NCBI GenBank assembly: GCA_018648645.1
Contig: JABGQS010000020.1
Location: 1-46,819, forward strand
Origin: Clostridia bacterium
GTDB taxonomy: Bacteria; Bacillota; Clostridia; Christensenellales; SZUA-584
DNA: 46,819 nt
Reading direction: 5' to 3'
Shown: piece after piece, positions 11,796-46,754 of the stretch
How the letters are laid out: each line of letters starts with the position of its first letter
How positions within the stretch are numbered: position 1 is the stretch's first letter
Notes under the pieces: generated by a model
The model's input: only the letters and a program-made list of their open reading frames with translations
Databases searched by the model: none
Told to the model about the DNA's origin: nothing
Translations under genes and position numbers: made by a program

Positions 11796-11853
11796 TGGCA
11801 AATCCCCCGTTACGAGTAGGCGTTCTTGGTATATTTTCCAAATAGATGCGAGT

Positions 11854-13525: not shown

Positions 13526-13633
13526 GAACATATCCTCCAATATTAGTAGGTTTGTTTGACAATCTGTTGCGAACAGTATATCACACCTTTGCCGATATGT
13601 AGCCTTATTTACTTTAATTTATCCTATTTATCG

Positions 13634-15195: not shown

Positions 15196-15267
15196 GTCCA
15201 TTTTCCTCCAATAATATAATGTTCTGTGTGTTGTGATGATATATTTGATTTTTCTAAATATAGTTGC

Positions 15268-29924: not shown

Positions 29925-30713
29925 CTAATCGCCAAGACCCAGTTCAGCCGCTATTAATTCTCTTGTATGGTTATGTTTTGGGCGTTTTAATACTTGTTCC
30001 GTGTCTCCCTTCTCAATAATTTCACCTCGATACATGACAGCAATGCGTTCGCAAAGGAAGCGGACAACCTTAATATCGTGGGAAATAAACAAGTATGTCA
30101 ATTTCAGCTCCTTCTTTAGTTTAATAAGCAGATTGAGGATTTGACACTGAACAGAAACATCCAGGGCAGACATCGGTTCATCACACACGATAATCTTCGG
30201 TCTGGTCGCTATTGCCCTGGCAATAATAATTCTTTGATTTTGTCCACCGCTCAATTGACCCGGGAATTTCAAACGCTCTGATGATGCGATCCCCACCATG
30301 TTCAGCAGCTTGGTTACTTCCCTGTTCTCCTCACTTATGCTAACAATTTTATGGATTCTCAATGGCTCGCGCAGCAGCTCCTCCACAGTCATTTTATTGT
30401 CCAAAACAGCGCTGCTGTGTTGAAATATAATCTGAATGTCCTTTCTCAGTTTGCGCATGCTTTGCTCATCCAGTTCAGTCAATTCCATACCAAAAAACTT
30501 TATACTGCCCTCATCCGGCTCAACCAATCTCAAAATCATGTTTGCTGTTGTGGTTTTCCCGCATCCGCTCTCACCGATAAGCCCTAAAGATTCTTTGGGG
30601 TATACACCAAAGGAAATATTTTTGACAGCGTCAATTCTACTTTTGGTGTATATATTCCTTCTGACGATAAACTGCTTTGATAAGTTATTTATCTCTAGAA
30701 TCTTTTTACTCAT
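29925..30713 (-). CDS. Oligopeptide-type ABC transporter ATPase (OppF/DppF-like)
   Basis: The 262-residue ATPase has Walker A GLIGESGCGKTTT, the Q-loop region IIFQHSSAVLDN, signature LSGGQNQRI, Walker B IIVCDEP with MSALD, and the H-loop LFISHDIKV. The Opp/Dpp family usually has LSGGQRQR; both ATPases here have LSGGQNQR. The C-terminus is short and ends soon after the peptide-type HNHTRELI. It is the last gene of a four-gene minus-strand operon and should pair with the ATPase at 30764 to power the two fused permeases. Confidence 0.9.
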   Translation of the reverse strand: MSKKILEINNLSKQFIVRRNIYTKSRIDAVKNISFGVYPKESLGLIGESGCGKTTTANMILRLVEPDEGSIKFFGMELTELDEQSMRKLRKDIQIIFQHSSAVLDNKMTVEELLREPLRIHKIVSISEENREVTKLLNMVGIASSERLKFPGQLSGGQNQRIIIARAIATRPKIIVCDEPMSALDVSVQCQILNLLIKLKKELKLTYLFISHDIKVVRFLCERIAVMYRGEIIEKGDTEQVLKRPKHNHTRELIAAELGLGD

Positions 30714-30763
30714 ACACTACCTTCCCAAAAAAATGTATTTGCTTCAACACATAGAAAACTGCG

Positions 30764-31741
30764 TCAAGTATAAATAATGTGATTTGTGCATCTCACTTTC
30801 CTATCGCCCATCACCACTACCTCTGGTATCCGCTTTGCGCACAAATCCAATTTGAATTTGCACCTGTTAATAAACGGACATTCGTCTTCGAATTCATACG
30901 GTGTAGGCGGCATGCCTTCTAGTGAGTACAGTGTCTCTTCGTGATTATCAAGCGAACTCGCGCATTTGATTAGCTCCATAGTGTACGGGTGCAAAGGCGA
31001 ATCTAGGATTTCATTCATCGGTCCTTCTTCGACCGACAGCCCGCCGTACATAACGACAATCCTGTCGCAAAGATACTTCGCGATGTCAAAATCATGCGTG
31101 ATGAAAACAATGGACATCTGATATTTCGTATTGATCTGCAAAAGCAAATCGAGTATCCTTTTTCGTATTGACGCATCAATCGAGCTCGTGGGCTCGTCTG
31201 CAATAAGCAGTTCCGGTTTGCAAATAATGCTTTGGGCTATCATAATCCTTTGATTCTGACCTCCGCTCAGCTGCGCGGGATACATTTCGTAGATTGTCTC
31301 TACGTTATCCAGCCCAACCTCCTTTAACACACTCGCTATTTTTTCTTTAGAAAACGGCAGCTTATGCGCTTTTAGCGTGCCTGCAAGCTGCCTGCCAACT
31401 CGTTTGAACGGATGCAATGCCGAAGCAGGGTTTTGAAATATGTAAGAAATCTTTTTTCCTCTTACTTCAATGAGCTGTTTCTCCTTGAGCTTGGCAAGGT
31501 CTATGTTTTCGAATCGCACTTCACCTGCGTCAATATGACCGTCAGCACTATCGAACAGCTTTACAATCGCGCTCGTGGAGATCGTCTTTCCGCTTCCGGA
31601 CTCGCCAAGAACCCCAACGATTTCGCCCTTCTTTAAACTCAAATCAAATCCGCGTATAATCTGCACGCTTTCGTTTTCGTTTATATACGACACCTTTAAG
31701 TTTTTTACTTCCAACATTTTTTTTGTCATACTCTTTGCCAT
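30764..31741 (-). CDS. Oligopeptide-type ABC transporter ATPase (OppD/DppD-like)
   Basis: The roughly 325-residue ATPase has Walker A GVLGESGSGKTIS, signature LSGGQNQRI, Walker B LLIADEPTSSID and H-loop VFITHDFDIA. Its C-terminal extension carries the Cys motif of Opp/Dpp ATPases (CPFINRCKFKLDLC, then a fourth Cys in VRCTNH). ATG 31741 is preferred (AAAGG 8 bases upstream). GTG 31768, with AAGGA upstream, would add nine residues. It lies 50 bases before the second ATPase gene and 59 bases after the second permease gene. Confidence 0.9.
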   Translation of the reverse strand: MAKSMTKKMLEVKNLKVSYINENESVQIIRGFDLSLKKGEIVGVLGESGSGKTISTSAIVKLFDSADGHIDAGEVRFENIDLAKLKEKQLIEVRGKKISYIFQNPASALHPFKRVGRQLAGTLKAHKLPFSKEKIASVLKEVGLDNVETIYEMYPAQLSGGQNQRIMIAQSIICKPELLIADEPTSSIDASIRKRILDLLLQINTKYQMSIVFITHDFDIAKYLCDRIVVMYGGLSVEEGPMNEILDSPLHPYTMELIKCASSLDNHEETLYSLEGMPPTPYEFEDECPFINRCKFKLDLCAKRIPEVVVMGDRKVRCTNHIIYT

Positions 31742-31800
31742 ATGCAAGCCTTTGCAGATGGTCGCCACCTCGTTTCCTTACGCTTTTGCCAACTCACGGC

Positions 31801-34062
31801 TTAATAATCAATTTCGTTAATTACTTTGAACAAAATACTCCCGATTTCATAAATACTGTGCTTGCCTTCGCCTTGCTCACCGGAGCCGATAATAATCGAT
31901 GCGATACCTCTGGTCCAAAACATCGCATTGTCCGCGTCACTGGCTACGTAGTAATGCTCGTTTTCAATCTCGATTGTTTCAAGCCCTTCGTAGAGTATCC
32001 CACGCTGGTTCAGCCCCTTCTCAAACTGATGCGCGATGCTCCATGCGTATTGGCGGGTTATCGGTGCCTGCACAGCGCTGAACACAATTTGGTCAAACTG
32101 CGCTTTTTCCAGATCGGTAAGATCAAAGTATATTCTTACTTTAGCCGAACTGTACGGGAAATCTTCACTAATTGGGTATGTGCCGTTATATACCTCTTTT
32201 TGCGTACCATCCAAAAACATGAATATCAGAGCCTTGTTTTTATCGTATGATGCGCAGAGTACTTCCATCAAGTTAAGATTAAACTGCAGCACTTCGTTGC
32301 CGTCATCAATCAAGTAATTGTAGTTTAGCCCAATGAGTATTGCGTCGCTGTCCTGTGTCCAATTTTCGTTTTTATAGATACCGACTATATTAGTTCCCTC
32401 ATTTTTCATTGGCATAAGAGTCGCGGACAAATCGAGCTCAACCCGGCTGTTCTGTGCAAGCTCTACTGCGAGCTCGACACTAACCAGCACCACATAAAAA
32501 TCTTCACTCTGCTCGACAAACAGGTTGCTGACTTCTTCCCCATCGCGCGCGACTAGAATGAAGCCCTTTATGTTTACGCTGCTGCTAATGCTCTTAATTA
32601 TATATTCAATCGCAGCATCTTGGTAATGCTGTTTGTCTATTAAAACAAAGCTGTCAATATACTTGCTGTATCCTTCGCCGTTAAACAAATCGTCTTTGGT
32701 GGCGTCGTATACGATACCTGAAATCTCAGCAGCCCCGGACGAAATAAATGCGTAATCTTCGTTCAGTTTCAGCGAAACATCGCTTTTTGTGCTCATGCGG
32801 AAAGTGTGCTCAACAAGGACGCTTGACGCTTCAATCTCATAATTTATGAAATAGCTGTCTCCTTCTATCGGCGCCACATTGAGCTCTCGCATTTTGTCCG
32901 TTATGATAGTCGCAGTATTGCCGGACGCCGGAGTCCCGATTAAAACTTGCTCGTATTCCATATCGTAGCTGGCAACTTTATTCACTTTATACTTATTGAT
33001 GTTAATTAGATATGGAGGCAGTATCAACGATGCGATTAGCACTACGGTAACTGCAACCTTGACCTTTGACGATTTGCCAAAGTTTCTCCACATGCCGACA
33101 AAGTCGAATGTCAATATCTTTCGCATAGTCGGAATGATATTGGAATCCTTTTTTTGCATCACTTTTCTTAAACCTTCTCCAAACAGGTTGAACCCCAGAA
33201 CGCTGATAAAAAACGCGAGTGCCGGAAACAACACCGCCCACGGCGCAACCCCGAGCAGGCTTCTCGACGTGCTGAGCATGCTTGCCCATTCCGGTTCAAA
33301 ACTGATGTTAAAAAAGGTGACATTGCCAAAGTCCGTACTTGCGACGAATTGGAGATTACCTACGAACACACTAAAAATTCCGAGTTTCATTATCAAAGAA
33401 AGCGAGCGCGCAATCTCCATAAAATACAGCACAATTAATTCGGGTGCCAAATGTGGTATAACGTTCTCTACCGCTATTCTCGATCTCTTTTTGCCGATCG
33501 CAACTTCACTTTTTATAAAGGGCTGACGGTTAATTGCCTCAACCCTCTCCATGATCAGATGACCAAGCTTGGGCCAGCCAACGAAGGAAAGCACCACAAC
33601 GAATGAAATAATCGACCTTGCTCTGTCCATCTGTGCAAACATGTCAAATTTGAGTATTATAAAGCTGAAAATCACGGCGGGAATAGCAGAGAATACGATG
33701 TTGAGTTTTTTAATGATAAACTTGCTGACCTTGTGCCCAAACCCGGCGCTGATGGCGAGCGGCACCGCTATTGCGAAACTGCCAAGTGCAACAAGCAAAC
33801 CAAGCAGGACTGTCAATCTGGTTCCGAACAGAATATAACTGTATATATCTCTTCCCATGTCATCGCTGCCGAGTATAAACTCGCCGGAGGGCGCAAAGGG
33901 GGCTCTATCCACAATCAAGCTGCCCGTCTCGTCATACGAAAAGATCAAGCGCTGTAAATTGTATGGGCTTTTGTCGGTGAGCAGATTCGGAAAAAGCATC
34001 ACGATCAATATCAATATCAGTATTATACATCCGATTATCAGAGGCGTGTTTAATCTCTTCAT
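31801..34062 (-). CDS. DppC-like permease fused to a C-terminal M28-peptidase-like domain
   Basis: The 753-residue membrane protein starts like a DppC/OppC permease. One span is near 8-26. The signature LGSDDMGRDIYSYILFG comes at about 63-79, then five more spans and an EAA loop (SEVAIGKKRSRIAVENVIP) at about 185-205. The permease part ends near 310. A further span at about 342-362 is followed by some 390 residues outside. That part has the outline of an M28 aminopeptidase with inserted PA-type region (SDAILIGLNYNYLIDDGNEV near 570-590). The zinc motif AHxD reads LNYN, so peptidase activity is not expected. The start overlaps the previous gene by four bases. Such a fusion is not a standard ABC arrangement. 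Confidence 0.8.
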   Translation of the reverse strand: MKRLNTPLIIGCIILILILIVMLFPNLLTDKSPYNLQRLIFSYDETGSLIVDRAPFAPSGEFILGSDDMGRDIYSYILFGTRLTVLLGLLVALGSFAIAVPLAISAGFGHKVSKFIIKKLNIVFSAIPAVIFSFIILKFDMFAQMDRARSIISFVVVLSFVGWPKLGHLIMERVEAINRQPFIKSEVAIGKKRSRIAVENVIPHLAPELIVLYFMEIARSLSLIMKLGIFSVFVGNLQFVASTDFGNVTFFNISFEPEWASMLSTSRSLLGVAPWAVLFPALAFFISVLGFNLFGEGLRKVMQKKDSNIIPTMRKILTFDFVGMWRNFGKSSKVKVAVTVVLIASLILPPYLININKYKVNKVASYDMEYEQVLIGTPASGNTATIITDKMRELNVAPIEGDSYFINYEIEASSVLVEHTFRMSTKSDVSLKLNEDYAFISSGAAEISGIVYDATKDDLFNGEGYSKYIDSFVLIDKQHYQDAAIEYIIKSISSSVNIKGFILVARDGEEVSNLFVEQSEDFYVVLVSVELAVELAQNSRVELDLSATLMPMKNEGTNIVGIYKNENWTQDSDAILIGLNYNYLIDDGNEVLQFNLNLMEVLCASYDKNKALIFMFLDGTQKEVYNGTYPISEDFPYSSAKVRIYFDLTDLEKAQFDQIVFSAVQAPITRQYAWSIAHQFEKGLNQRGILYEGLETIEIENEHYYVASDADNAMFWTRGIASIIIGSGEQGEGKHSIYEIGSILFKVINEIDY

Positions 34063-36239
34063 TTCCTCACCTCGTGCTTCAGCGGATTAGCAAATTTCGC
34101 GAATATCCGGACTATCCACGTAAATAATATGTACATACAGGCGATGACCAAGATGATTACGAGAAACTGGTAATATGCCTTTTTTGAGTAGAAAAAGATG
34201 AGATAATAGCCCACGCCCAAATAGCGGAATAGAAATTCTACAACAATCAAATTCGATATAATCATTGTCATGATTGTCGGTAAAGAGTCTATCGCTTTAA
34301 AAAGGCTTGCAGGCAGCAGTTCATTGAAGTAAATTCTTCTTTTGCTTAAGCCCTTGGCTTTTGCATTCTTGATATAGTCTTTTTTCGACTCCTCTTGGGT
34401 AGTGATATATGTAATCCTGGATATGTATATGATAGGGATTATACAGAGCGTTATCAGCGGAATTATAAAATCGTTGATGGGGAGCGCTTCTTTTGCTTGG
34501 GGGAAATTCTGAGAATAGAATATGCTGACAGTCCATCCAAGCAGCACGAGCAGCACGTCAGGGATCGAAAAGGCGATAAGGGTACCAAGTGATTCGATCT
34601 TTTGTCTCTTAGAGCGGTAGCCGGCGTACAGACCGGTGCTGATACCTATCACGACAGCAAGTACGAGTGTTGATAATATCAGCCATAAACTTTTGGAAAA
34701 CGAATCAAGTATTATCGAGAAATTCTCCTCTACATCCGCAACTGTGTCTGTTCCCGTGCTGAATATGTTGCTGATAAACGATACACTCTTATTAAAACTC
34801 TTAGAGATTTTATCCCAAACGTTTAAAAACCCAAAACCTGTGTCTTTATAGATTTCTTTTTTTATGTAATTAGTCAATACCAGTGAAGCGTTATTAAGGC
34901 TATTTATATCTACGTTTTCGATATTGTCTTCATAGACGTTTTTGAACAAACCGGCATTGCCGAAGGTGATTAGCCGGACATCGCTGTATGAAAAGTACTC
35001 GAACTGTTCGTCTTTGACTTGAGACATATCGAGCACAATTGCTGCAGCTTGTGAATGTTCAACAATGCTATCTCTTAGCTCCAGGCTGTTTGTGTTCGCC
35101 GGCGTAATTGCCGTGCCTTCTCGAACACTCCTCCCGATTAGCTCAAGACTAATCACGGTTGACTTTTCCAGCGGGTATACCGGGTTTCTGCCATAATACT
35201 GCGACCCGGCGTACTGCTGTAGCTGTCCATTAAAGCATATAAAATATATCGTTTGATAAGGCAAGTTTTTTTGCGCAGCGACAACCCGTGCTGCTTCAAG
35301 CAATGTCGCGACGCCGCTTGAGCTGCCGACTGCACCGGGGAAGTATCCTCCGTCGGTGCCCATGCCAACGCCGTCGATATTCGCGGTAATCAGCAACACC
35401 TCGCCGCCAGAACTCCTGCCGTCAAGCTTGCCAATAATGTTCGATGTGTTCACGATTGGATACTCTATTTTCGCACTAAGAATTACATTGCTTATGATCT
35501 TTTGCGTGCGCTCATCGCCGTCAGTCCCGACCGTGTTGGTATAGTTTTTTAAGTACTCATACATATCGAAAGAGATGTACCCAACGCCGATAGACTCTCC
35601 GGTTTTCCCCCACGTGCCTACTGTCTTTTCAGTTTCGTAAACATTTGGAGCCTCATTCGGGGCAACATCCGCACAACAAAAAACTCCTTTTCCACCATTT
35701 TGAATAACGTAATCAACTTGGCTTGCATTGAGCTCGCCAGATTCGATAATCACAATCCTGTCTTTGATAATGTCGGGATTGACAAGAAACAACGTATCTT
35801 CTAGCAGAACGACTTCACCTGTAAAATCAATGCTCCCACCGTTCATGTATGACAGCAAATTGTAATCCTCGTACAAAACGAATTCCTTAATTACCTCGCG
35901 CTCGTGCGATATAATTGCAAACGAAGCGTTTTCGTCGATATTTGGAACCATTACGGTAAAGGGCTGATAGTACTGCTCATTAATTCCACCCGGCGCAACA
36001 CCAATTTCTCTAAATTGTTTTTCAATATATTCTAAGGTTTCCTCGTTGCCGATTGTGCCGGTTTTTCTGCCGGAATAAGTAGCAGAAGTGAACTCCTCCA
36101 CATCAGAATAGATATGATCCACATTTAATACGGTTTCGTCAAATGAGTTTGTGAATTGAAAAGAGTTGAAAAGTATAAAAAAAGAAAGCAGAAGTAACAC
36201 AGGGATCACTATTCCGAGTAGCCGTTTCTTTGCTTTCAT
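34059..36239 (-). CDS. DppB-like permease fused to an N-terminal M28-peptidase-like domain
   Basis: The 726-residue protein begins with one span (about 8-27) and an extracytoplasmic M28-like domain with an inserted PA-like region (about 90-260). The zinc-binding blocks are recognisable but altered. TANIDGVG (285-292) stands for AHxD, GAVGSSSGVATLLEAAR (302-318) for DNASG, and FNGQLQQYAGSQYY (336-349) for EEQGLxGSxxY, so three ligand positions are lost. From about 540 to the end follows a DppB-type permease half with the EAA loop NAKAKGLSKRRIYFNELLP. The typical N-terminal permease span is replaced by that of the peptidase-like part. ATG 36239 is chosen for AGGAA 7 bases upstream. It is the first gene of the operon. 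Confidence 0.8.
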   Translation of the reverse strand: MKAKKRLLGIVIPVLLLLSFFILFNSFQFTNSFDETVLNVDHIYSDVEEFTSATYSGRKTGTIGNEETLEYIEKQFREIGVAPGGINEQYYQPFTVMVPNIDENASFAIISHEREVIKEFVLYEDYNLLSYMNGGSIDFTGEVVLLEDTLFLVNPDIIKDRIVIIESGELNASQVDYVIQNGGKGVFCCADVAPNEAPNVYETEKTVGTWGKTGESIGVGYISFDMYEYLKNYTNTVGTDGDERTQKIISNVILSAKIEYPIVNTSNIIGKLDGRSSGGEVLLITANIDGVGMGTDGGYFPGAVGSSSGVATLLEAARVVAAQKNLPYQTIYFICFNGQLQQYAGSQYYGRNPVYPLEKSTVISLELIGRSVREGTAITPANTNSLELRDSIVEHSQAAAIVLDMSQVKDEQFEYFSYSDVRLITFGNAGLFKNVYEDNIENVDINSLNNASLVLTNYIKKEIYKDTGFGFLNVWDKISKSFNKSVSFISNIFSTGTDTVADVEENFSIILDSFSKSLWLILSTLVLAVVIGISTGLYAGYRSKRQKIESLGTLIAFSIPDVLLVLLGWTVSIFYSQNFPQAKEALPINDFIIPLITLCIIPIIYISRITYITTQEESKKDYIKNAKAKGLSKRRIYFNELLPASLFKAIDSLPTIMTMIISNLIVVEFLFRYLGVGYYLIFFYSKKAYYQFLVIILVIACMYILFTWIVRIFAKFANPLKHEVRK

Positions 36240-36289
36240 ACTATACTTCCTAATTAATATTATGTCTTGCGGCTTGAGTACGTATGATA

Positions 36290-36318
36290 ATATTAACATA
36301 TTTTTGTAATATTTTCAA
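36290..36318 (-). promoter_or_regulatory. Sigma-A promoter for the ABC/peptidase-like operon
   Basis: On the minus strand TTGAAA (36313-36318) and TAATAT (36290-36295) are 17 bases apart, 51 bases before the start codon. Confidence 0.6.
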
Positions 36319-36552: not shown

Positions 36553-36644
36553 TTATGCAGAATAAGAAAAGAGATCAGTAAATAAGAGCTTTTTCGAACT
36601 AGTTACTACGTAATTATACTGCTTTATATGTATGCTTTAGGGTT
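36519..36644 (+). repeat. Right copy of the ~126-bp direct repeat
   Basis: It starts TACCCTTTAGACA and ends ATGCTTTAGGGTT and matches 29677-29801 in the same orientation, with strong conservation at both ends and divergence in the middle. It continues directly into a tRNA- or tmRNA-like 3' end. A further TTACCCTTTA lies at about 36721. The rest of 36300-36518 holds only the promoter and the tiny frame above. Confidence 0.6.
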
Positions 36645-36665
36645 CAAGTCCTGCTGTCTCTACCA
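36639..36665 (+). other. tRNA- or tmRNA-like 3' end fragment
   Basis: AGGGTTCAAGTCCTGCTGTC followed by TCTACCA has a T-loop (TTCAAGT), a 3' T-stem strand, a 7-base acceptor strand, a discriminator A and CCA. It resembles the 3' end of Bacillota tmRNA (TTCGACTCC-...-CCACCA). The 5' part of the RNA is missing, as expected where an integrated element regenerates or displaces an RNA-gene end. Confidence 0.5.
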
Positions 36666-36727: not shown

Positions 36728-36949
36728 TTACAGTCTTGGAATAACCTCAATTAACCATTCATGATAATGAACAGACAAAGAAAATAATGTGGCTTGGGAT
36801 ACTTCTTTATGATGAGTTAGCAGCCAAGAAAACAGAAGCTTTGAGATTTCTTGGCTGTTAACATGCGTTTTTCGTCCGCCATTTTCCTGCAAAATTATTT
36901 CGCCGTTAATAAACAACCAATTGCGCTGCAAAGGAGTTATCGTTTTCAT
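36728..36949 (-). CDS. Small hypothetical protein (73 residues)
   Basis: The product MKTITPLQRN... has no signal peptide, membrane span or recognised motif. It is mixed in charge, with a hydrophobic helix around LLFSWLLTHHKE. It begins 51 bases after the sialidase-fold gene on the same strand and could be its last operon partner. The ribosome site is weak. It may be real but is poorly supported. Confidence 0.4.
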   Translation of the reverse strand: MKTITPLQRNWLFINGEIILQENGGRKTHVNSQEISKLLFSWLLTHHKEVSQATLFSLSVHYHEWLIEVIPRL

Positions 36950-37000
36950 ATTTAGCCGGTTGTTTAAAGATCACATCTTTAAACCTATTCGCTGATAAAT

Positions 37001-38104
37001 TTATAATGCTATACCCGTGGCAATCGTCTTGTATTGCCCTTCTTCCGCTAACCAATGCGCCATAAGCAAAGTTCCGTCTTTTAATTTTACAGCACCGGGC
37101 ATGCCAAACTTTAAGTAGGCGAAAATTGCAGCCGTAGTATCATTCGCTGTGATTAATTTTGACTGGGGCTGCCAAAGTATGGCTTCCTCGGTAATGTTCC
37201 AAGCTCCGTTACTAAAATCCACTAAATAGCCGTATATTCCGGGCTCGTCAGTATCCTTGCGCATAGTATGTAAAGAGAACATACTCGACCCGGAGAGATG
37301 ACAAACAAACGGTGTTTGTCCGTTGATACCGGTATCAAACGGTTTCGAAAAAGTACGGCCATTGTCGCGGGAAATGGTGTAATGATTATTCAATGTCTTT
37401 TCGTTAATAGTATCTTCGTTCCATGCAATTATGATTGTGGTACCGTCGCTTAATTGACAAAGCCGCTGCTCATAACAGGTTATGGAATCTCCCGGGAATT
37501 CCATACACACTACATCGTCGTTCCATGTTTTACCTTGGTCATCGGAGCGAAGCAGCCGCCCGCACATGCGGCTGGTCATTTCGGCTTCCCAGTTTGGGAA
37601 ACCTGTAATAGGGGTAACCCAGCTTCCGTTCTGCAATACGGTAATTGGAGCGGGGGCTTCGACATGACGACCCCAAGTACAAGCAATTTCCTGCCGGTCA
37701 GACCAAGTTATCCCTTTGTCGTCTGAGATGCTAAAGAATACTATATCATCGAGCACGCCTCCGTTATCGGGGTTTGCAATCGCCTGCTCAGGATCGTCGC
37801 GAATGAAACCGTATCCAAACGCAATTAGCCGACCATCGGGAAGGAGCGTTATTTTAGCGCAGTCTGATACCGGGAAAGGATAATCTTTTTTGCCCAACGA
37901 CCATGGTTCACCCCATGTTCTTCCGCCATCAGTACTTCGAGAAATGCTGGCAGTACCGTCAACACTTTCAAATGCTTCTCCCATTTGATGAGTTGCCAAA
38001 ATAGAGCCGTCTTCCAATTCGCAAAGATAAGGAAAAGAAGAATTTTTGGCATGTAACTGAGGTCGCGGATTGTCCCAAATTGGGTTTGAAAACAATATTT
38101 CCAT
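37001..38104 (-). CDS. Sialidase-fold (BNR/Asp-box) protein
   Basis: The 367-residue protein is a six-bladed sialidase-type beta-propeller with four Asp boxes: STDGGRTWGEP (about 56-66), SDDKGITWSD (about 126-135), SDDQGKTWND (about 186-195) and SRDNGRTFSKP (about 245-255). There is no signal peptide, so it should work in the cytoplasm, unlike most sialidases. Members of this family act as exo-sialidases or on other sugars; the Arg triad cannot be assigned with confidence. The ATG at 38104 has AAGGCAGG upstream. It lies 99 bases downstream of the large FG-GAP protein gene on the same strand. Confidence 0.8.
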   Translation of the reverse strand: MEILFSNPIWDNPRPQLHAKNSSFPYLCELEDGSILATHQMGEAFESVDGTASISRSTDGGRTWGEPWSLGKKDYPFPVSDCAKITLLPDGRLIAFGYGFIRDDPEQAIANPDNGGVLDDIVFFSISDDKGITWSDRQEIACTWGRHVEAPAPITVLQNGSWVTPITGFPNWEAEMTSRMCGRLLRSDDQGKTWNDDVVCMEFPGDSITCYEQRLCQLSDGTTIIIAWNEDTINEKTLNNHYTISRDNGRTFSKPFDTGINGQTPFVCHLSGSSMFSLHTMRKDTDEPGIYGYLVDFSNGAWNITEEAILWQPQSKLITANDTTAAIFAYLKFGMPGAVKLKDGTLLMAHWLAEEGQYKTIATGIAL

Positions 38105-38203
38105 TATTAGCCCTGCCTTTCTTTTTTGCGAATGATATAGAACGAAATCGATTCTTCCGCGTTAGCTTTTTATCTGTGCCAAACGTTGTTTTTATATCCA
38201 GAG

Positions 38204-40891
38204 TCAGTCGATTGTAACTCTTTTTAGGCGTGGCGAATTGCACAAAGCCGGCGAGTAAAATTCTGCTTGATACTGAATTATCTTTGAATGCCTGGGGACA
38301 GGAATTATGGTCCCGTTTTCAAGTGCATCGCTCCAAATACCATCGTCGAAGCGGATACGCATAAACAGCTTCGATGTATTAGGCTCTTCCGCAACCCAGT
38401 AGATATGCACAGTTTTATCATCATCAAGTTTGATTGGACAAGATGTATAATACTCGCTCTCGCTGCGGTCAAAAACGTTAGCTTGGCTTTTCGTTGTGAA
38501 GTTGTGCGGACCTATTCCCAAGTACTTGTGCGGATGGTCGTAGTCCAGCCCGTCAGGTCCGTTCATCAACAGATAAGAATCCAGGATGTGCCCTTTATCC
38601 TTGCGATGGCAGCAAACGAACAGATCAGGGTAACCGTTGCGGGTCAAATCTACAGGAATCGATGCGACCGATGAATCAAAGATGAAATTTTCGGTATCAT
38701 CAAATTGAAAAGAACCGTGTTGGTCATTGCGGATTATCCTTAGTGGCCCGGTTCTGGTTTCAGTACTTGAATAATGAGGCAATATCATGTCTAGCCAGCC
38801 GGTATTATACATATCAGCAAAAGAAACATACCCGGTCGTTGCACCTGTTTCCCAGCGTATTTGCTTATCGGCAGGGAATCCTTCTTCATCATTCCAATCG
38901 CGTAAAATGTAGACATACGACGGAATATTAAAATAGTGTCCGGAAGAGGTGCAGATAACTTCAAGTTTGCCGTCCTTGTCATAGTCAACAGCTGTGACGC
39001 CAAAATGGAATGCCTTATTATCCTCATGCCCTTTTAAAGTGAACAAGCGGTGGGAATCGGGGTCGAAGCCATCTTTTGTTCCTAAGAAAACACCAAGTCT
39101 TCCATCGCCATCACTGTAAATTAGATCCTGATAACCGTCTGCGTTAATATCAGCTAACACCACAGATTGGGCAGTAGCGATGTAACACGGCAGCAGTTGA
39201 CGATTTTCCTCCTTATAGCCATCAGCACTGCCGTACCAGACATACACAGAAGAATTGAGCTCTTCTTCATTTTTGCTGTATACCCACGGGAGCATGATTA
39301 TATCCAAATATCCGTCATGGTTGAAATCGCCGACCAATACACCGCCAAGTTCTTTTCTTAGTAGTTTAGGATGTACGAGCTCTTGAAAGTTTTTGGGATC
39401 CGGACCATTTTCGGTTCCTTTAAAAACACGAATTGTACTGTGCGTGGATGCTACAAACTCTACTTCGCCGTCATTGTCGGTATCTGAGCCCGTATACCCG
39501 TAACAACTTGTAATAATGGGGAAGTCTATGCGGTTTTCCTTAAGATACTGGAAATCTTTGTTACCGAGATATAGGAATGCAGGAAATTCCGGATCGTGCT
39601 GTATATGGCCGGTTATTGTGTTGCAAATATACAATTCAAATTTTCCGTCATGGTCAAGGTCGTAAAACTTTGCATCACGAACACCAAAGGTATCAAAGGC
39701 AGTCGTGTGCTCAATATCAAATCGATTATCACCCTGATTATGGAATAACAGCGATTGCGAGTCGTACGTCTTTGTTTCATCATTGTAAAAACGACCGGCA
39801 AAAATATCATAACTTCCGTCGCCGTTTAAATCGACAGCGGTGACAGCAGTACAGCCGTAACAGTCTATCCTGCGCCAAACAGCATCTAGATCATCAATCC
39901 TTCGTATCTGGACGCCTTCTTTTGTGCCGATTAAAATTTCGTTGTTTCCGTCACCGTCAAAATCAACAAAACAAAGAGGAAGCTCCTTTTTGAAATACAT
40001 GGCATTTTCGCCCTCTATTTCTATGACTTTTTTGTCGTTCTCGGAGAAGGTACCGTTGCGATTCCAGTAGATTGTAATTCTCCCGTTTCCTGTAAGGATG
40101 ACTTCCTTGAAACCGTCTTTATTTAGATCTTGAGCATAAGCTTTTGTTACAAGTGAACACGGCAGTTGCATGGAATTTTCTTTAGAGTAACCATCCTTTG
40201 AACCAAAGAAGATATTAGTATAAACATCATCCGTATAATTTTGTTTATATCCCGCGAAAATAAAATCGGGATAGCCGTCGTTGTTTATATCGGTACAGAC
40301 AAGTGCATCTATCGATAAGCCCTCGAAAGGGAATTCTTCTGTCGCATCACGAAATTTGCGTGGACTTTCCTGTAAATAAACGCGCTGCTTGAATAGGTTC
40401 CCGGTAAAATGATGGTCGTACCAAGACGTTGTGATTACTAAATCCTGCAGCCCGTTTCCGGTTAGGTCGCAAAAAGCAGCTCCGTATGCACCGACGCTTT
40501 TTAGTGCAGTACATTCCTGCGTAAGCCCATCTTTTGAGCCCCAGAAAATATAGCATTCCAAATCACAGGTAACGCCGTTTGCCGCAAAGGTAACTAGAAG
40601 GTCTTCGTATCCGTCGCCGTCTATGTCACACGCAATGGTATTCCAGCTGCAATCGTGGGGAAGCTCGCTGTGCTGCCAGTTGTTTTTTCCGTCTTGTTTA
40701 TATACCGAAACAGGACCTCTCTCTGTATAGCCGTGACTGTTGGGCAGAGCAATATCAAAAATACCGTCATGGTTAAAATCGTTTTCTGTAATCCGGCGTA
40801 CTACTCCGGTTGCATCTACAAAGAGGTTGTCGCCAGAGTTACCAAAAGTTCCTTTGATAAATGCATCAAATCCTTTGTGTATAGTTTTCAT
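38204..40891 (-). CDS. Large FG-GAP/VCBS-repeat beta-propeller protein, leaderless (copy 1)
   Basis: The 895-residue protein consists of about fourteen Ca-binding DxNxDGxxD repeats spaced some 50-60 residues apart, such as NDFNHDGIFDI, CDIDGDGYEDL, TDINNDGYPDF, GDFNHDGYLDI and VDYDKDGKLEV. Most are followed by a blade motif like IFWGSKDG or VWYGSADG. This predicts two linked seven-bladed propellers. A C-terminal beta domain (last about 90 residues, ending SPRLKRVTID) resembles a carbohydrate-binding tail. No signal peptide is present at ATG 40891, which has AAAGGA 9 bases upstream. The frame continues upstream to 40945, but still without a leader. It is a paralog of the gene at 42097. Confidence 0.8.
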   Translation of the reverse strand: MKTIHKGFDAFIKGTFGNSGDNLFVDATGVVRRITENDFNHDGIFDIALPNSHGYTERGPVSVYKQDGKNNWQHSELPHDCSWNTIACDIDGDGYEDLLVTFAANGVTCDLECYIFWGSKDGLTQECTALKSVGAYGAAFCDLTGNGLQDLVITTSWYDHHFTGNLFKQRVYLQESPRKFRDATEEFPFEGLSIDALVCTDINNDGYPDFIFAGYKQNYTDDVYTNIFFGSKDGYSKENSMQLPCSLVTKAYAQDLNKDGFKEVILTGNGRITIYWNRNGTFSENDKKVIEIEGENAMYFKKELPLCFVDFDGDGNNEILIGTKEGVQIRRIDDLDAVWRRIDCYGCTAVTAVDLNGDGSYDIFAGRFYNDETKTYDSQSLLFHNQGDNRFDIEHTTAFDTFGVRDAKFYDLDHDGKFELYICNTITGHIQHDPEFPAFLYLGNKDFQYLKENRIDFPIITSCYGYTGSDTDNDGEVEFVASTHSTIRVFKGTENGPDPKNFQELVHPKLLRKELGGVLVGDFNHDGYLDIIMLPWVYSKNEEELNSSVYVWYGSADGYKEENRQLLPCYIATAQSVVLADINADGYQDLIYSDGDGRLGVFLGTKDGFDPDSHRLFTLKGHEDNKAFHFGVTAVDYDKDGKLEVICTSSGHYFNIPSYVYILRDWNDEEGFPADKQIRWETGATTGYVSFADMYNTGWLDMILPHYSSTETRTGPLRIIRNDQHGSFQFDDTENFIFDSSVASIPVDLTRNGYPDLFVCCHRKDKGHILDSYLLMNGPDGLDYDHPHKYLGIGPHNFTTKSQANVFDRSESEYYTSCPIKLDDDKTVHIYWVAEEPNTSKLFMRIRFDDGIWSDALENGTIIPVPRHSKIIQYQAEFYSPALCNSPRLKRVTID

Positions 40892-40947
40892 TATCGCGTT
40901 TCCTTTCATATTTTTGTTTACAACACAGCAGCAATCTGCTAACATTA

Positions 40948-40976
40948 ATTTTAGTGAGTTAACAGCAAATAATCAA
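40948..40976 (-). promoter_or_regulatory. Promoter of FG-GAP protein gene 1
   Basis: On the minus strand TTGATT (40971-40976) and TAAAAT (40948-40953) are 17 bases apart, 57 bases before the ATG. The site lies in the shared control region with the divergent AraC-type gene. Confidence 0.55.
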
Positions 40977-41046
40977 TAGAGTATTGAAGCGAAAATTATG
41001 CGATTATGGGTCGTTTGATTATTTATTATGGCGGTTAAAAAGTATT

Positions 41047-41919
41047 ATGGATAAGTTTCATGATTTTGAATTAAAAGTACATCTGGGCTCTATTGTGTTT
41101 GATGTTATGCTTGGTTGTGGATTTAGTGGTTCTTCCGGACGCTACGACAGCATGGAGCATAAGCATTTGTTTTATGAGATTCAATTTTTCAAGGTTGGAA
41201 AAGGGACAATATCCACTGCGGAAAAGACATTTTCGGTCGAAATGGGTGAATATTGTTTGATCGCGCCTGATTTGTATCATAGCCAGCATGACGTGGTTGA
41301 CACACGGCTCCAAAAATATTGTGTGCGTTTTGAGTATACGATTAACGAGGATTCTGACCGTCTTCCAAAAGCTGAAACAATATCTTTTCTAAATGCGCTG
41401 TCTTCTGTGACTGTTTTTCATACTAAGGACAGGCATAATATCATGAACCGTCTTGCCGTTCTGGATAGTATTTTGATAGAGCGGCCGTTTGGTTATTGCT
41501 CTAGGATACTTAATGAATTGAGCATGGTGATTCTTGATATGTTATCAGATATTGCAGGGTTATCATATAAGTCTCAATATGACGTTCTGCGTAAGTCGCA
41601 GCTTCAGATGCGCACAAAATTAATTGATGATTTCTTTAGTCAGCATTTTGCCTCAGGTGTAACCGTTGAACAATTATGCAATATATTACATATGAGCAAA
41701 AGCAATCTTAATCGAATTTTAAGACAAGAATATAATCAGAGCTTTAAACAAATTATAATTCAGCTGCGTTTGGAACAGGCTGAGTATTTGCTGAAAACAA
41801 CGGATTTATCAGTTGAAGCAATTGCAAAGCGGGTAGGATATCATTCCTTGTTTGCGTTTTCGTCCCTGTTTCACCGCCGACACGAATGTACCCCCACCCA
41901 GTTTCGAAAGACACAGTAA
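41047..41919 (+). CDS. AraC-family transcriptional regulator
   Basis: The 290-residue regulator has an N-terminal cupin-type sensing domain (about 1-150), with EIQFFKVGKGTISTAEKTF and GEYCLIAPDLYHSQHD typical of sugar-responsive members. A C-terminal double helix-turn-helix (about 190-290) contains VEQLCNILHMSKSNLNRILR, then LSVEAIAKRVGYHSLFAFSS and the closing CTPTQFRK. The ATG at 41047 fits the domain start; the frame extends to a TTG at 40984. Lying between two divergent FG-GAP genes, it is the likely local activator. Confidence 0.9.
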   Translation: MDKFHDFELKVHLGSIVFDVMLGCGFSGSSGRYDSMEHKHLFYEIQFFKVGKGTISTAEKTFSVEMGEYCLIAPDLYHSQHDVVDTRLQKYCVRFEYTINEDSDRLPKAETISFLNALSSVTVFHTKDRHNIMNRLAVLDSILIERPFGYCSRILNELSMVILDMLSDIAGLSYKSQYDVLRKSQLQMRTKLIDDFFSQHFASGVTVEQLCNILHMSKSNLNRILRQEYNQSFKQIIIQLRLEQAEYLLKTTDLSVEAIAKRVGYHSLFAFSSLFHRRHECTPTQFRKTQ

Positions 41920-42009
41920 TTTTCAACAAAGACGAGCTTATTCATCCGATAACAAACTGCAGACAGCAACGCATTGCGGCGAATGCTCTACGTTATAATT
42001 TCAAAAATG

Positions 42010-42039
42010 TTGACCGCAAATTGCGCTAAACCGTATATT
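42010..42039 (+). promoter_or_regulatory. Promoter of FG-GAP gene 2 with a palindrome between -35 and -10
   Basis: TTGACC (42010-42015) and TATATT (42034-42039) are 18 bases apart. CGCAAATTGCG (42015-42025), an 11-base perfect palindrome, overlaps the -35 edge and sits in the spacer, where a regulator could act. TTGGAG precedes the start codon at 42097. Confidence 0.5.
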
Positions 42040-42096
42040 GTAAAGAAACCATCGCAAGCTAGGAATGGCATTGATAAATAGTATTGGAGAAAAGCA

Positions 42097-44853
42097 ATGT
42101 TAAAAAAATGGATTACAAAGGGTTTTGATGATTTTTCGGCAGGAAAATTTGGGAACGGCGGGCAAAATATTTATGTTTCAAAACGAGGCGTGTTGCAGCG
42201 GGTATACCACTATGATGTAAATAAAGATGGTTATTTTGATCTACTGTTTTCAAACGGTCAGGATATGGAGGAGCGAGTACCAGCCTTTTTATACCAAAAA
42301 GAAAAATCAGGGTATGTTCGAAAAGAACTGCCGACTCATGGTGCATATTCGGCTACTGTGGCAGATCTTAGCGGCGAAGGGCATCTTGATCTCATTATTG
42401 CAAATCAAAATGACGGAGCAACATCAAATGTGTGTGCGCAGATTTATCCCGGAAACCCAGAGGGTATTAGTGGAAATTATCTTTTTGAACTTCCGGTCCC
42501 CGATGCAAGAGCGGTTGCGGCGGGTGATTTTAATGGAGATGGAAAGCAAGAGCTGGTTTTTTATTCGGACGGAAAACTTCAGCTGTTTTACCAAAATGAA
42601 AACGGATTTGCGCCTAGGTTTTCTCAAACAATTCCAATTGACGATATTGTTGCCGTGCATGCAGCGGATATAGATAAAGATGGATTTTGTGATTTGTTCG
42701 TAAGGATTGGTGGCGGCAGTCCTCGTGTGTTTTGGGGGTCGCCGGACGGTCTTGATCCAAACCGCAGCTCAACAGTCGGCTCAAATGAGCCTTTCTCCCA
42801 CGATACTATGGGCACTACACTCGGAAGGCCTTCTTATTATTGGGGATGGACTCCAAAGGTTATTGATATAGGAGATGAGCGGTTGTTGTTTCGTGTCGAA
42901 GAGAGCACAGCGGTCTTTTATCGTAATATAAACCGAGAATTTTCACCGGCATTTTGTTTGGATTGTCAAGGTATAGTCTCTGTTGCTTGTGTAGATGTTG
43001 ATCATGATGGATGGCCGGATATTGTTGCTGTCGTCTGCACAGATATCAGCAAGGAAGAGAACTCTATTATCTTTTGGGGTTCAAAAGACGGGTATTCTTT
43101 AAAAAACACTACGGAGCTTAAAACGCAAAGCGCCCGCGATGCAGCTGTATTTGAGGATGAGGACACTTGTATAGCCATATGCCAAGGCAAGACAGATACG
43201 CTGCTGTCTACGCATTCTCTCGTATACAGACTAGATGGTCGTATGATATTAGATTGTACCTCGCTTGAAACGCACGACGCTACCCGCGTGTTTGTTGCGG
43301 GCAGCAGCACTAAACCTCAGCTTATTTTTGTTAATCATGAAGGAGGCCGTACGTGTGCCGATATAAACGCTTATTTGTATTATGGCGGCCCTGACGGGTA
43401 TAACCCGGATCGAAAAGCAGAATTGCCTGCTATGTCGGCTACCGATTGCAATTGCTGCGACTTTAATGATGACGGCTGGGCGGATATTCTGCTTTGTAAC
43501 AGCTCTGATGCCGCTTATCATTTGGATCCGGGGAGTTTTATATATTATGGAAGTCCATCGGGTTTTAAAACAGATAATAAATGCGTTTTACCTACTATAC
43601 GGTGCGTTGGGGCTGCGGTAGGAGATTTTCGTCATAGTGGTTATTTAGATATTGTTATGGCAGGCAGTTATAATGCAGAATTGCTTCTTTTTCACGGTAC
43701 ACATGATGGATTCGATATATCGAATCCGGAGCGCATTTTACTGGATCCGGATTGCGCTGATTATACACCATACAAAGTTAAAACTGCCGATGGCTGGCGA
43801 GAATTTGACAACGATGCAAGGGCGAAAAAATATCGGGAGCCAAGGTATCTGTATACAGCGGATTTTAATAACGATGGCTGGCTTGACATTTTTGTGTCGG
43901 AGATACTTGGGGATTATTCATACATTCTTTGGGGAGGCCCAGAAGGATTCTCTTTGGATAATTCGCAAAGGGTAATGACAGAAAATGCAGTCTGTGCAAA
44001 CGCTGCAGATTTTACCGGTAATGGCTGGCTTGATTTGGTAGTAGGCAGTTTTTATAGCTCTGTGCCGGATAGCGAAGCAAAATTGCATTATGATTCGTAT
44101 GTAACTGTTTACTATGGCGGACCAAACGGATATTCAGAATACAGGAAAACACAACTTCCGGCAAATGCGGCGACATCAATTGCTGTAGCTGATTTTAATA
44201 ACGATGGATTTTTAGATATTTTCGTTACGTCATACCATAACGGTCGATCCCGAGACACGGATGCGTTTTTCTATTGGGGAGATGCGCAGGGAGCATTTGA
44301 TCCGACACGAAGGTCACGCTTGTTTAATCATTCCGGAAGCGGTTGTGTTGCTGCTGATTTTGATGAAAATGGATATATCGATCTTGCCGTTGCAAGCCAT
44401 AAGGCATACGGTAACCATAAGTGTGATTCTTTTGTATTTCGAAACGGACCGGACGGGTTTTTGAAGGACGGCACACTTAGGTTACCTACAGAGGGTCCGC
44501 ATGGTATGATGCCGGTAGATCCCGGAAACATATTAGATCGAACAAATGAAGAGTATTATATTTCTGCTATTCACTCTTTTGATGAGGTTGTTAGTTTGAA
44601 AAGTTTGTCATTCAAAGCGCAATTGCCGCCTAAAACGTGGGTGAAATTATGGATACGTGCCGGCAATACGAAACAAGAACTGCTCGGAAAACCATTTACG
44701 GGGTCTACCGACGAATACTCGTGGTATACAAACGGCGATAATATTGTTTGTTCGACGTGTAAATACTCTCAGTTTAAACTAAGTTTAGGCTCAGTAAACG
44801 GAGCTGCGTCACCACGTCTTTCTGAAGTGATATTAGATTATGAATCAGCTTAA
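42097..44853 (+). CDS. Large FG-GAP/VCBS-repeat beta-propeller protein, leaderless (copy 2)
   Basis: The 918-residue paralog of the protein at 38204 begins almost identically (KGFDDFSAGKFGNGGQNIYV against KGFDAFIKGTFGNSGDNLFV). It carries about eleven Ca-binding repeats, including YDVNKDGYFDL, GDFNGDGKQEL, VDVDHDGWPDI, ADFNNDGWLDI and ADFDENGYIDL, interspersed with WGSPDG and YYGGPDG blades. The C-terminal beta domain contains TWVKLWIRAGNTKQ and ends SPRLSEVILDYESA. No signal peptide or membrane span is seen. The ATG has TTGGAG upstream and its own promoter. It is oriented away from the AraC gene. Its partner or ligand is unknown; a polysaccharide-related role is inferred from the neighbours. 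Confidence 0.8.
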   Translation: MLKKWITKGFDDFSAGKFGNGGQNIYVSKRGVLQRVYHYDVNKDGYFDLLFSNGQDMEERVPAFLYQKEKSGYVRKELPTHGAYSATVADLSGEGHLDLIIANQNDGATSNVCAQIYPGNPEGISGNYLFELPVPDARAVAAGDFNGDGKQELVFYSDGKLQLFYQNENGFAPRFSQTIPIDDIVAVHAADIDKDGFCDLFVRIGGGSPRVFWGSPDGLDPNRSSTVGSNEPFSHDTMGTTLGRPSYYWGWTPKVIDIGDERLLFRVEESTAVFYRNINREFSPAFCLDCQGIVSVACVDVDHDGWPDIVAVVCTDISKEENSIIFWGSKDGYSLKNTTELKTQSARDAAVFEDEDTCIAICQGKTDTLLSTHSLVYRLDGRMILDCTSLETHDATRVFVAGSSTKPQLIFVNHEGGRTCADINAYLYYGGPDGYNPDRKAELPAMSATDCNCCDFNDDGWADILLCNSSDAAYHLDPGSFIYYGSPSGFKTDNKCVLPTIRCVGAAVGDFRHSGYLDIVMAGSYNAELLLFHGTHDGFDISNPERILLDPDCADYTPYKVKTADGWREFDNDARAKKYREPRYLYTADFNNDGWLDIFVSEILGDYSYILWGGPEGFSLDNSQRVMTENAVCANAADFTGNGWLDLVVGSFYSSVPDSEAKLHYDSYVTVYYGGPNGYSEYRKTQLPANAATSIAVADFNNDGFLDIFVTSYHNGRSRDTDAFFYWGDAQGAFDPTRRSRLFNHSGSGCVAADFDENGYIDLAVASHKAYGNHKCDSFVFRNGPDGFLKDGTLRLPTEGPHGMMPVDPGNILDRTNEEYYISAIHSFDEVVSLKSLSFKAQLPPKTWVKLWIRAGNTKQELLGKPFTGSTDEYSWYTNGDNIVCSTCKYSQFKLSLGSVNGAASPRLSEVILDYESA

Positions 44854-45358: not shown

Positions 45359-46135
45359 TTACTGCGCCATGCACCTTTTCTCGTATGGAGTCATGCTTGT
45401 CTTCAGTTTTAACCTTCTATAATTATAGAAGGTTACATATTTGTTCACTATTTCCTCTGCTTCATCGAAGTTCCTTAGACTTGTCCTGTAAAGACATTCT
45501 GTCTTTAATATCCCAAAGAAATTCTCCATCACCGCATTATCATATGGATTCCCGGCTCTTGACATCGACGGTAAAAAGGAATGTTCCTCGCTTAGAGCTT
45601 TGTATGCATGAGATGTGTATTGTGTCCCCTGGTCGCTATGGAGTATCAATCCATTGGCGAACTTTTCATTTTTGCATGCTCTACCAATCGTATCAGTTAC
45701 AAGAGATGCTGTCTGATCTCTTGCTATACTATAATCTACAATGTAATTGTCATATAGGTCCATTACAGCTGCCATATATACAAACCCCCGGCCTGTTGGT
45801 ATATATGTAATATCTGTTACCCATTTCTTATTCGGCTCCGATGCATCAAACTTGCGATTTAATATGTTGGGATATTTATGACTTGGCTTTCCATATCTGA
45901 AATTAGGTTGGCTCCTTCTAATAACCGCCTGCAATTTGTATTTTCTCGCTACCCGAATTATTGCTTTATGATTGACATTCTGCCCTTTTTCTCTCATAAT
46001 CCACATCTTAACCCTCCTGTACCCGTATGTTTGCCCTGTTTCCTCTTGACATTGCTTAATCCACCCTGCTAATTTTTCATCTTTATCTTTTCTCTTAAGC
46101 CATACATAGTAGCCGCTTCTGGACACCTCAAACAT
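45359..46135 (-). CDS. IS3-family transposase OrfB (integrase core)
   Basis: The 258 residues from the first ATG contain the HTH_21-like TGQTYGYRRVKMWI and the rve catalytic core. Its DDE residues are Asp in WVTDITYI, Asp in LHSDQGTQYTS and Glu in NAVMENFFGILKTE, followed by YNYRRLKLKTSMTPYE. The frame is open further upstream into OrfA in the -1 phase, so the active protein is probably an OrfAB fusion made by frameshifting. All catalytic residues are present. Confidence 0.92.
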   Translation of the reverse strand: MFEVSRSGYYVWLKRKDKDEKLAGWIKQCQEETGQTYGYRRVKMWIMREKGQNVNHKAIIRVARKYKLQAVIRRSQPNFRYGKPSHKYPNILNRKFDASEPNKKWVTDITYIPTGRGFVYMAAVMDLYDNYIVDYSIARDQTASLVTDTIGRACKNEKFANGLILHSDQGTQYTSHAYKALSEEHSFLPSMSRAGNPYDNAVMENFFGILKTECLYRTSLRNFDEAEEIVNKYVTFYNYRRLKLKTSMTPYEKRCMAQ

Positions 46136-46194
46136 TTTACATAATATACTGATCGGATATTCTTTTGAGTAGCGCTGGACTATCTGATATTGTT

Positions 46195-46512
46195 TTATCG
46201 CCCCCTTCCTATTTCTTTCACAAAATTTCTTAATAACTCAACTTGTAATTCTAGCATTCTGATTTTCTCTTCCTTTTGCTTGCCCGATAATTCTAATCCT
46301 ACGCGCCTCTTTCGAGCGGAGGTGACATTAGGAGCTTGCTCCATTTGTAACAGTCTTCTTTTATATCGCCTGCAAAGCTCCCTGCTTTGGTCGCTTGACT
46401 TAAGCCCGAATATTTCTGCAATTTCTCTATGGGACTTTCCTTCCTCTCTCAGGTTCAGTACACTCTCGATAATCTGTGCGCCATAATGCCGCATCCCTTT
46501 TACTCCGCTCAA
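46195..46512 (-). CDS. IS3-family transposase OrfA (helix-turn-helix)
   Basis: The 105-residue DNA-binding protein has a helix-turn-helix in SHREIAEIFGLKSSDQSREL. A leucine-zipper-like coiled coil follows near the end (KEEKIRMLELQVELLRNFV). The start is a TTG at 46512 with AAGGAGG 9 bases upstream, which decides against the longer frame to 46590. Near its 3' end the minus strand reads A-AAT-TTT (46222-46228), a canonical slippery heptamer that would shift ribosomes by -1 into OrfB. Confidence 0.85.
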   Translation of the reverse strand: MSGVKGMRHYGAQIIESVLNLREEGKSHREIAEIFGLKSSDQSRELCRRYKRRLLQMEQAPNVTSARKRRVGLELSGKQKEEKIRMLELQVELLRNFVKEIGRGR

Positions 46513-46589
46513 TAAAAAACACCTCCTTGTAATCATTCTACAATAGAAGGTGGTTTTTATGCACTGTCCGTAATTCGGGGTGCAGTTCA

Positions 46590-46754
46590 ATCACTTCTAA
46601 CAAAGGTTTTGATGGTTGGGCTGATCTTCTTGGTGATACAGTATTAGCTACTGCACTTCTTGATAGATTAACTCACAGATGCCAAGTAATCACATTCACT
46701 GGTGATAGTTATCGTCTTGCGCATCATAGTGATATTTTCTCTACTAATATCTGA
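46590..46754 (+). pseudogene. IS21-family IstB, C-terminal remnant
   Basis: The 54 codons read ITSNKGFDGWADLLGDTVLA, then TALLDRLTHRCQVITFTGDS and YRLAHHSD, ending at TGA 46752-46754. This is the final part of the IstB helper ATPase, after Walker B (sensor I ITSN and the R-rich tail). The ATPase core is missing. The frame begins exactly at the right end of the IS3 element. Confidence 0.85.

Follow-up and report, generated by a model that had tools for sequence, protein, structure and literature searches.

The stretch of DNA analysed here, referred to as the window, is an entire contig (C13) of 46,819 bases from a Clostridia bacterium, the genome assembly of which amounts to 2.67 Mb in 77 contigs and is 95% complete. 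Between about 37.0 and 44.9 kb it carries a cluster of four genes. On the minus strand, a gene for a leaderless FG-GAP/VCBS protein named PropA (38204..40891, 895 amino acids from the likely true ATG) is followed by that of a BNR_2, or sialidase-fold, protein (37001..38104, 367 amino acids), also leaderless. On the plus strand, an AraC-family regulator (41047..41919 from its ATG, with an alternative TTG at 40984) is followed by PropB (42097..44853, 918 amino acids), a second leaderless FG-GAP/VCBS protein, modelled as a double propeller. Inspection of the sequence places the divergent PropA/AraC intergenic region at 40892..41046. Matches to the Pfam family FG-GAP_3 were far above chance for both PropA (E = 4.3e-53, 178.2 bits) and PropB (E = 7.9e-47, 158.1 bits), with a curated cut-off of 26.9 bits. 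The AraC protein exceeded the cut-offs for HTH_18 (E = 8e-22), HTH_AraC and AraC_binding (E = 2.5e-6), giving it a DNA-binding and a ligand-binding domain, and the BNR protein matched Pfam BNR_2 (E = 1.1e-11, 45.1 bits with a cut-off of 31.4) and, by profile, sialidases in the PDB. The arrangement described in the original prediction, with two propeller genes on divergent strands, an AraC gene between them and a BNR gene, was thus found complete.

No signal peptide was found in PropA, PropB or the BNR protein, as the original prediction had stated, nor was an upstream start missed that would supply one. From its first ATG, the open reading frame (ORF) of PropA covers 38204-40945 on the minus strand (913 amino acids), and its short upstream frame reads MLADCCCVVNKNMKGNAI. 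Lacking a basic N-region and unmatched in relatives, this frame is implausible as a leader. PropA most likely starts at 40891, given the good ribosome-binding site AAAGGAAA seven bases before this ATG and the same position of the starts of relatives. The ATG of PropB at 42097 is preceded by GGAG, and an in-frame stop six codons upstream leaves no room for a missed leader.

PropA and PropB align over their whole length with 24–29% identity (two alignments). They are paralogues, as had been proposed, but their likeness is not limited to the N-terminus. A third leaderless paralogue, PropC, is located on contig C22 of the same genome and is 43% identical to PropA. In an unrooted tree of 17 rows, PropB and 12 other proteins formed one clade with a support of 100/100, spanning Bacillota, Chloroflexota and Lentisphaerota and consisting of leaderless members only; PropA, PropC and two Ignavibacteriales proteins fell outside it. 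PropA and PropB are therefore old, distinct paralogues and not a recent pair. The same 17 rows served for the cysteine count given below; left out were the near-identical L113, L114, L131 and L133, the partial L040 and L032:3-941, and L038, which has another architecture (1326 amino acids). Over its full length PropB is 37–46% identical to nine orthologues from three phyla. The start conserved in its clade reads W..KGF..F..GTFGNGGQN.YVS, and the invariant alignment columns give the N-terminal signature FxxGxFGNGGQNxYVSxxGVLQR, at residues 13-35 approximately (42133..42201, plus strand).

The leader was absent at the conserved start in all 15 rows other than the Ignavibacteriales proteins. Thirteen of these lack a hydrophobic 10-mer (Kyte-Doolittle value of at least 2.0) even in the upstream open frame; PropA and L112 do have one, but it precedes the start that is likely to be the true one. 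The two complete Ignavibacteriales relatives carry clear signal peptides and are the only secreted proteins among the full-length matches listed, so that secreted forms are far from general among the close homologues. As background, 72 other VCBS loci were taken from the at least 79 loci among the matches listed (L038-L110 without L040), 70 of them with a complete 5′ end; an N-terminal hydrophobic segment was present in 63 of the 70, by a crude 10-mer test that did not search the same region in the family as in the background.

Cysteine content provided an independent witness of location, as bacteria of this kind tend to keep free cysteine out of the proteins they secrete. It ranged from 1.52 to 3.66% in the 15 leaderless rows (median 2.4), against 0.53 and 0.54% in the two secreted Ignavibacteriales relatives and a median of 0.59% in the 72 other VCBS loci (P = 1.5e-9, counted on matched stretches for the background and on whole proteins for the family). 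In the same genomes, the median was 0.82% for secreted-like ORFs (n = 38) and 1.47% for cytosolic-like ORFs (n = 74), and the BNR protein of the window contains 2.18%. By these two lines of sequence evidence, the absent leaders and the cysteine content, the cytoplasmic location in the original prediction is well supported, and the leaderless family very probably resides in the cytoplasm. Unconventional export, by which leaderless proteins would still be active outside the cell, is a very unlikely explanation. It would account for the retained Ca-type loops in proteins of a kind that normally has a signal sequence, as seen in the background loci and as a propeller cluster analysis gives for the VCBS core group (PMC8023676); against it, secreted VCBS proteins and the secreted-like proteins of the same genomes contain far less cysteine, and no recognised export gene recurs beside the family.

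The family is sparsely distributed. A profile of the three propeller proteins detected it in six of 391 genomes of the class, and a PropB-clade profile in two of 398 genomes sampled from the phylum, the window genome included in both counts. Among 297 genomes of the order, a search with PropA gave, outside the window genome, a single match that was short and weak; the full protein is retained in one of the 297. Full-length relatives among the matches listed come from Paenibacillus oceani, two ruminant-cecum Clostridia, a Caldilineaceae, a Lentisphaerae and an Ignavibacteriales assembly. Copies of the PropB kind number three in genome G560 and four in G642. On viral contigs none of 32 pattern matches was confirmed as a family member, and the plasmid search returned a single weak, partial match. 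No description of the leaderless branch was found in the literature searched, and it is called undescribed here on the strength of that search only. A scattered occurrence, together with an IS3-type element and a tRNA remnant close to the cluster, might also be expected of decayed secreted genes that have lost their leaders and any function. Decay is hardly credible, however, for intact frames of about 900 amino acids with a start conserved in every complete copy, with PropB conserved over its full length across three phyla and with the multiple copies of G560 and G642.

An AlphaFold2 model of PropB, built from a nine-row alignment, reached a predicted local distance difference test score (pLDDT) of 84.9 and a predicted template modelling score of 0.82. 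In VIA-align the model matched the propellers of LGI1, AUDH and integrin with Z of 24–29. Residues 67-417, which form propeller 1 (approximate limits; 42295..43347, plus strand), gave the highest value among the VIA-align rows, with the EPTP domain of LGI1 (Z 28.7, 298 residues aligned, root-mean-square deviation (rmsd) 2.6), and matches to integrin alpha-V, CRTAC1 and PLL5 span PropB from about residue 37 to 786-910. These aligned ranges suggest that propeller 1 interrupts propeller 2 after its first strand region, and that a C-terminal beta-sandwich comes last (residues 818-918 approximately, 44548..44850, plus strand; domain model pLDDT 81.9). The original prediction had suggested looking for a carbohydrate-binding fold in this last domain. 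A beta-sandwich was indeed modelled, but its jelly-roll and carbohydrate-binding module (CBM)-like matches are weak and neither support nor exclude such a function: the best Foldseek E-value was 0.012, and in VIA-align a phage tail protein ranked first (Z 8.1), and the Eph and CBM rows reached 5.5–6.4. The whole-model Foldseek list consisted mostly of DDB1/CPSF chains with poor superposition (rmsd 19–36), which hints only at several propellers per chain. Among solved structures, a sequence search with PropA gave none at E ≤ 0.01, and a profile search with PropB gave motif-level matches to integrin, CRTAC1 and an esterase only.

The polar residues that are invariant across the 17 rows and were judged not to belong to the repeat loops are N24, E59, Y713, H768, H774, S778, R815, Y821, S823, R854 and Q892. 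Most of them should lie at, or just behind, the expected contact of the N-terminal region with the last blade of propeller 2. E59, H768, H774, S778, R815 and Y821 would be distributed between the first strand region on one side and the last blade and linker of this propeller, which the N-terminal region seems to close, and this clustering points to one putative ligand-binding or active site at the closure.

AraC regulators adjoin several family copies in relatives, and the original prediction had regarded PropA and PropB as a regulated pair. AraC control of the two genes found no support in the window. A shared operator of the PropA/AraC and AraC/PropB gaps was rejected, the best local score of 22.0 being reached by 219 of 500 shuffles, and promoter- and terminator-like sites were no more frequent than in shuffled sequence. 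The proteins might still form a cytoplasmic scaffold or ligand sensor, a platform for protein-protein contacts instead of an enzyme, perhaps reporting an imported sugar to the AraC regulator. Beta-propellers often serve as scaffolds, PropA matches BBS2_Mid (E = 2e-9) and weakly BBS7, both eukaryotic BBSome subunits, and the fold lists contain a KICSTOR component and DDB1-type multi-propeller proteins; the AraC neighbours would fit as well. Such a role is nevertheless unlikely in view of the missing operator, of the habit of AraC proteins to bind their own ligand themselves, and of the invariant His, Arg, Tyr and Glu residues concentrated at both ends of the propeller-2 sequence, an arrangement that could be that of an active site.

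The BNR protein of the window reads SSFPYL at the FRIP position and has no FRIP arginine. Invariant across nine BNR homologues are E46, R102, N111, E149 and E212, R102 being the sole invariant arginine. GH33 sialidases are defined by the FRIP motif and an arginine triad, and with its FRIP arginine missing the BNR protein is, judged from its sequence, unlikely to be a classical sialidase. BNR homologues occur in nine and the propeller family in six of 391 genomes, with five shared (P = 1e-8 by genome, 7.6e-5 by genus), on the assumption that both searches covered the same 391 genomes, as the equal count and the same listed handles indicate; the homologues of G306 and G343 are only 29–31% identical. 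A BNR_2 protein near PropB in G306 (L116:6318-7979) did not match the window BNR protein at 1e-6 and was not counted. In G302 (L171) the BNR homologue adjoins a NanA-like gene and an AraC-like ORF, and in G653 a gene of the N-acetylglucosamine (GlcNAc) 2-epimerase family.

Several further observations concern the BNR homologues. At L171:4370-5968 (minus strand) in G302, a BNR domain is fused to a Gfo/Idh-type domain beside a truncated NanA-like gene, which is either a genuine fusion or possibly an artefact of assembly. A second leaderless BNR paralogue of the window genome, 47% identical, lies on contig C8 (L169:7809-8972, minus strand) beside a diaminopropionate ammonia-lyase gene. The G560 homologue adjoins a protein of 304 amino acids, a 59%-identical relative of which precedes a NanA-like aldolase in the window genome. 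This family of about 300 residues (L167:5273-6187 and L175:10110-10994, both on the minus strand) has no Pfam match, and the first member no PDB match by sequence.

Around the relatives of PropB, genes for sugar-acid enzymes recur. An aldolase directly adjoins the PropB orthologues in G560/G642 and G658, together with AraC regulators; the copies scanned, those of G560 and G658, passed the NCBIfam cut-off for N-acetylneuraminate lyase (358.8 and 357.2 against 281 bits). A gene of the dihydrodipicolinate synthase (DHDPS) family lies 1.1 kb from the G680 copy, another 1.4 kb from the Lentisphaerae copy, and one about 7 kb away within a second G560/G642 cluster. In the seven genomes for which all such genes were counted (2–10 each), three of 11 family loci lay no more than 2 kb from one, where 0.205 were expected (P = 9e-4). 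DHDPS-family aldolase matches numbered nine in the window genome (G000), nine in G560 and ten in G642. A YhcH gene lies directly downstream of the third G560/G642 propeller locus (L033) and scored 69.9, below the NanQ cut-off of 160. In E. coli, YhcH opens the sugar ring for NanA (PMC8141875).

With a NanA-type aldolase and YhcH next to orthologues, a sialidase-fold protein in the window and a GlcNAc 2-epimerase-family gene beside the G653 homologue, the cluster could be taken as part of ordinary sialic-acid catabolism, that of N-acetylneuraminate (Neu5Ac). This is quite improbable for the cluster, and Neu5Ac catabolism is likewise unlikely in the window genome. NanE (PF04131) passes its cut-off in four of 11 genomes only, that of the window not among them, the two NanA-like paralogues of the window genome, on C77, reach 204 and 227 bits and thus stay under the lyase cut-off of 281, the YhcH score is low, and in the BNR protein the FRIP arginine is missing. 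On the scarcity of NanE, the low C77 scores and the missing arginine, a different keto-deoxy sugar acid, or an oligosaccharide that includes one, is the likelier substrate.

The family is tentatively proposed to handle keto-deoxy sugar acids, or oligosaccharides of these, in the cytoplasm, probably as enzymes or ligand-binding proteins. Within the cell, PropB and its orthologues may work on acidic sugars or short oligosaccharides that have been imported, either upstream of NanA-type aldolases and YhcH-type sugar-opening enzymes or alongside them, several clusters being under putative AraC-type control. They would either catalyse, as lyase, isomerase or hydrolase, or only bind; the leaderless BNR protein of the window could belong to the same intracellular pathway, in a role other than that of a classical sialidase. 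The proposal of the original prediction, that the proteins handle breakdown products of a polysaccharide, is plausible in this respect and stays putative, with NanA-family aldolases, YhcH and AraC recurring beside relatives. A bolder version, doubtful as it stands, is that leaderless VCBS double propellers in at least three phyla are intracellular enzymes, lyases or isomerases, whose substrate is a keto-deoxy sugar acid or its oligosaccharide, and that an undescribed pathway joins them to a leaderless BNR protein and NanA-like aldolases.

Several observations weigh against the proposed role in sugar-acid handling. The window cluster itself contains no aldolase, YhcH or sugar kinase, and PropC is isolated between dapF and an acetyltransferase-like ORF. 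No DHDPS-type gene was present in the stretches examined of L117, L116, L035, L034, L132 and L037, some of which are short contigs, and NanE was not found in the window genome, G658, G302 or G653. The co-occurrence of BNR and propeller proteins may reflect large sugar-degrading genomes and not a shared pathway. Ca-type loops have also been retained, although the cytoplasm is poor in free Ca2+: PropA, PropB and PropC have 9–13 loops of the DxDxDG type, and the leaderless proteins 7–13 each, while the two secreted relatives have 14 and 11.

No transporter or lyase had been seen in the cluster originally. This has to be qualified, as an Opp-type ATP-binding cassette transporter operon (29925-36299), on the same strand as the BNR gene, begins about 700 bp beyond it. 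Both of its permeases (34059-36299 and 31801-34062, minus strand) are fusions, one with an N-terminal M28 peptidase domain and the other with a C-terminal extension of about 440 amino acids without Pfam match; the ATPases follow at 29925-31768. At 36641-36665 (plus strand) lies a 3′ tRNA-like end with T-arm and CCA, followed by a terminator-like stem; the rest of the tRNA is absent (ARAGORN reported none there), and the element, which borders the propeller cluster, may be what is left of an attachment site. Just past PropB, an IS3-type element with two ORFs, an integrase core and a small helix-turn-helix ORF, occupies 45359-46590 (minus strand). Farther away, five tandem paralogous lipoproteins are encoded on the minus strand (8108-9898, 10020-11801, 12026-13540, 13699-15201 and 15714-16565), sharing a PEEYT/PGKYT.GV...YPED/YPDD motif after the lipobox; the two tested matched no Pfam family.

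If the cytoplasmic assignment holds, this conserved, leaderless and cysteine-rich branch represents a VCBS/FG-GAP fold repurposed for the bacterial cytoplasm, which raises the question of what the Ca-type loops bind there. Paenibacillus oceani, a named strain with a PropB orthologue at L037:10037-12805, offers an entry point to the function of the family. Automated annotation labels such proteins secreted or adhesion-like, which the present assignment may help to correct.

Among known systems, aldos-2-ulose dehydratase (AUDH, PDB 4a7k) resembles PropB in its length of about 900 amino acids and its FG-GAP-type propeller, and is a keto-sugar enzyme; propeller 1 aligns to it with Z 26.4 and rmsd 3.3 over 322 residues. 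AUDH continues into C-terminal cupin domains, whereas region 420-918 of PropB was modelled as a second propeller and beta-sandwich and has no Pfam cupin match. An AUDH-like cupin enzyme was considered for PropB and not adopted. The eukaryotic BBS2/BBS7 and ITFG2/KICSTOR proteins, which are cytoplasmic, share FG-GAP propellers with the Prop proteins (PropA has a profile match to BBS2_Mid, with BBS7 below its cut-off), but belong to eukaryotic complexes without sugar-enzyme context. With the GH33 sialidases, the window BNR protein has the Asp boxes and sialidase fold in common; it differs in the missing FRIP arginine, the single invariant arginine and the absence of a leader. The Neu5Ac operons with NanA and YhcH (PMC8141875) recall the neighbours of the Prop relatives, whereas NanE was not found in the window genome, and FG-GAP proteins are unmentioned in the part of that source drawn on. 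The VCBS/FG-GAP core group (PMC8023676) has FG-GAP_3 repeats, DxDxDG loops, multiple propellers and an accessory beta-sandwich in common with the Prop proteins, which in contrast have no signal sequence, are rich in cysteine and recur beside cytoplasmic sugar-acid enzymes. PropA, PropB and PropC thus appear as cytoplasmic branches of the known FG-GAP/VCBS superfamily, differing from it by compartment, composition, double-propeller plan and gene context.

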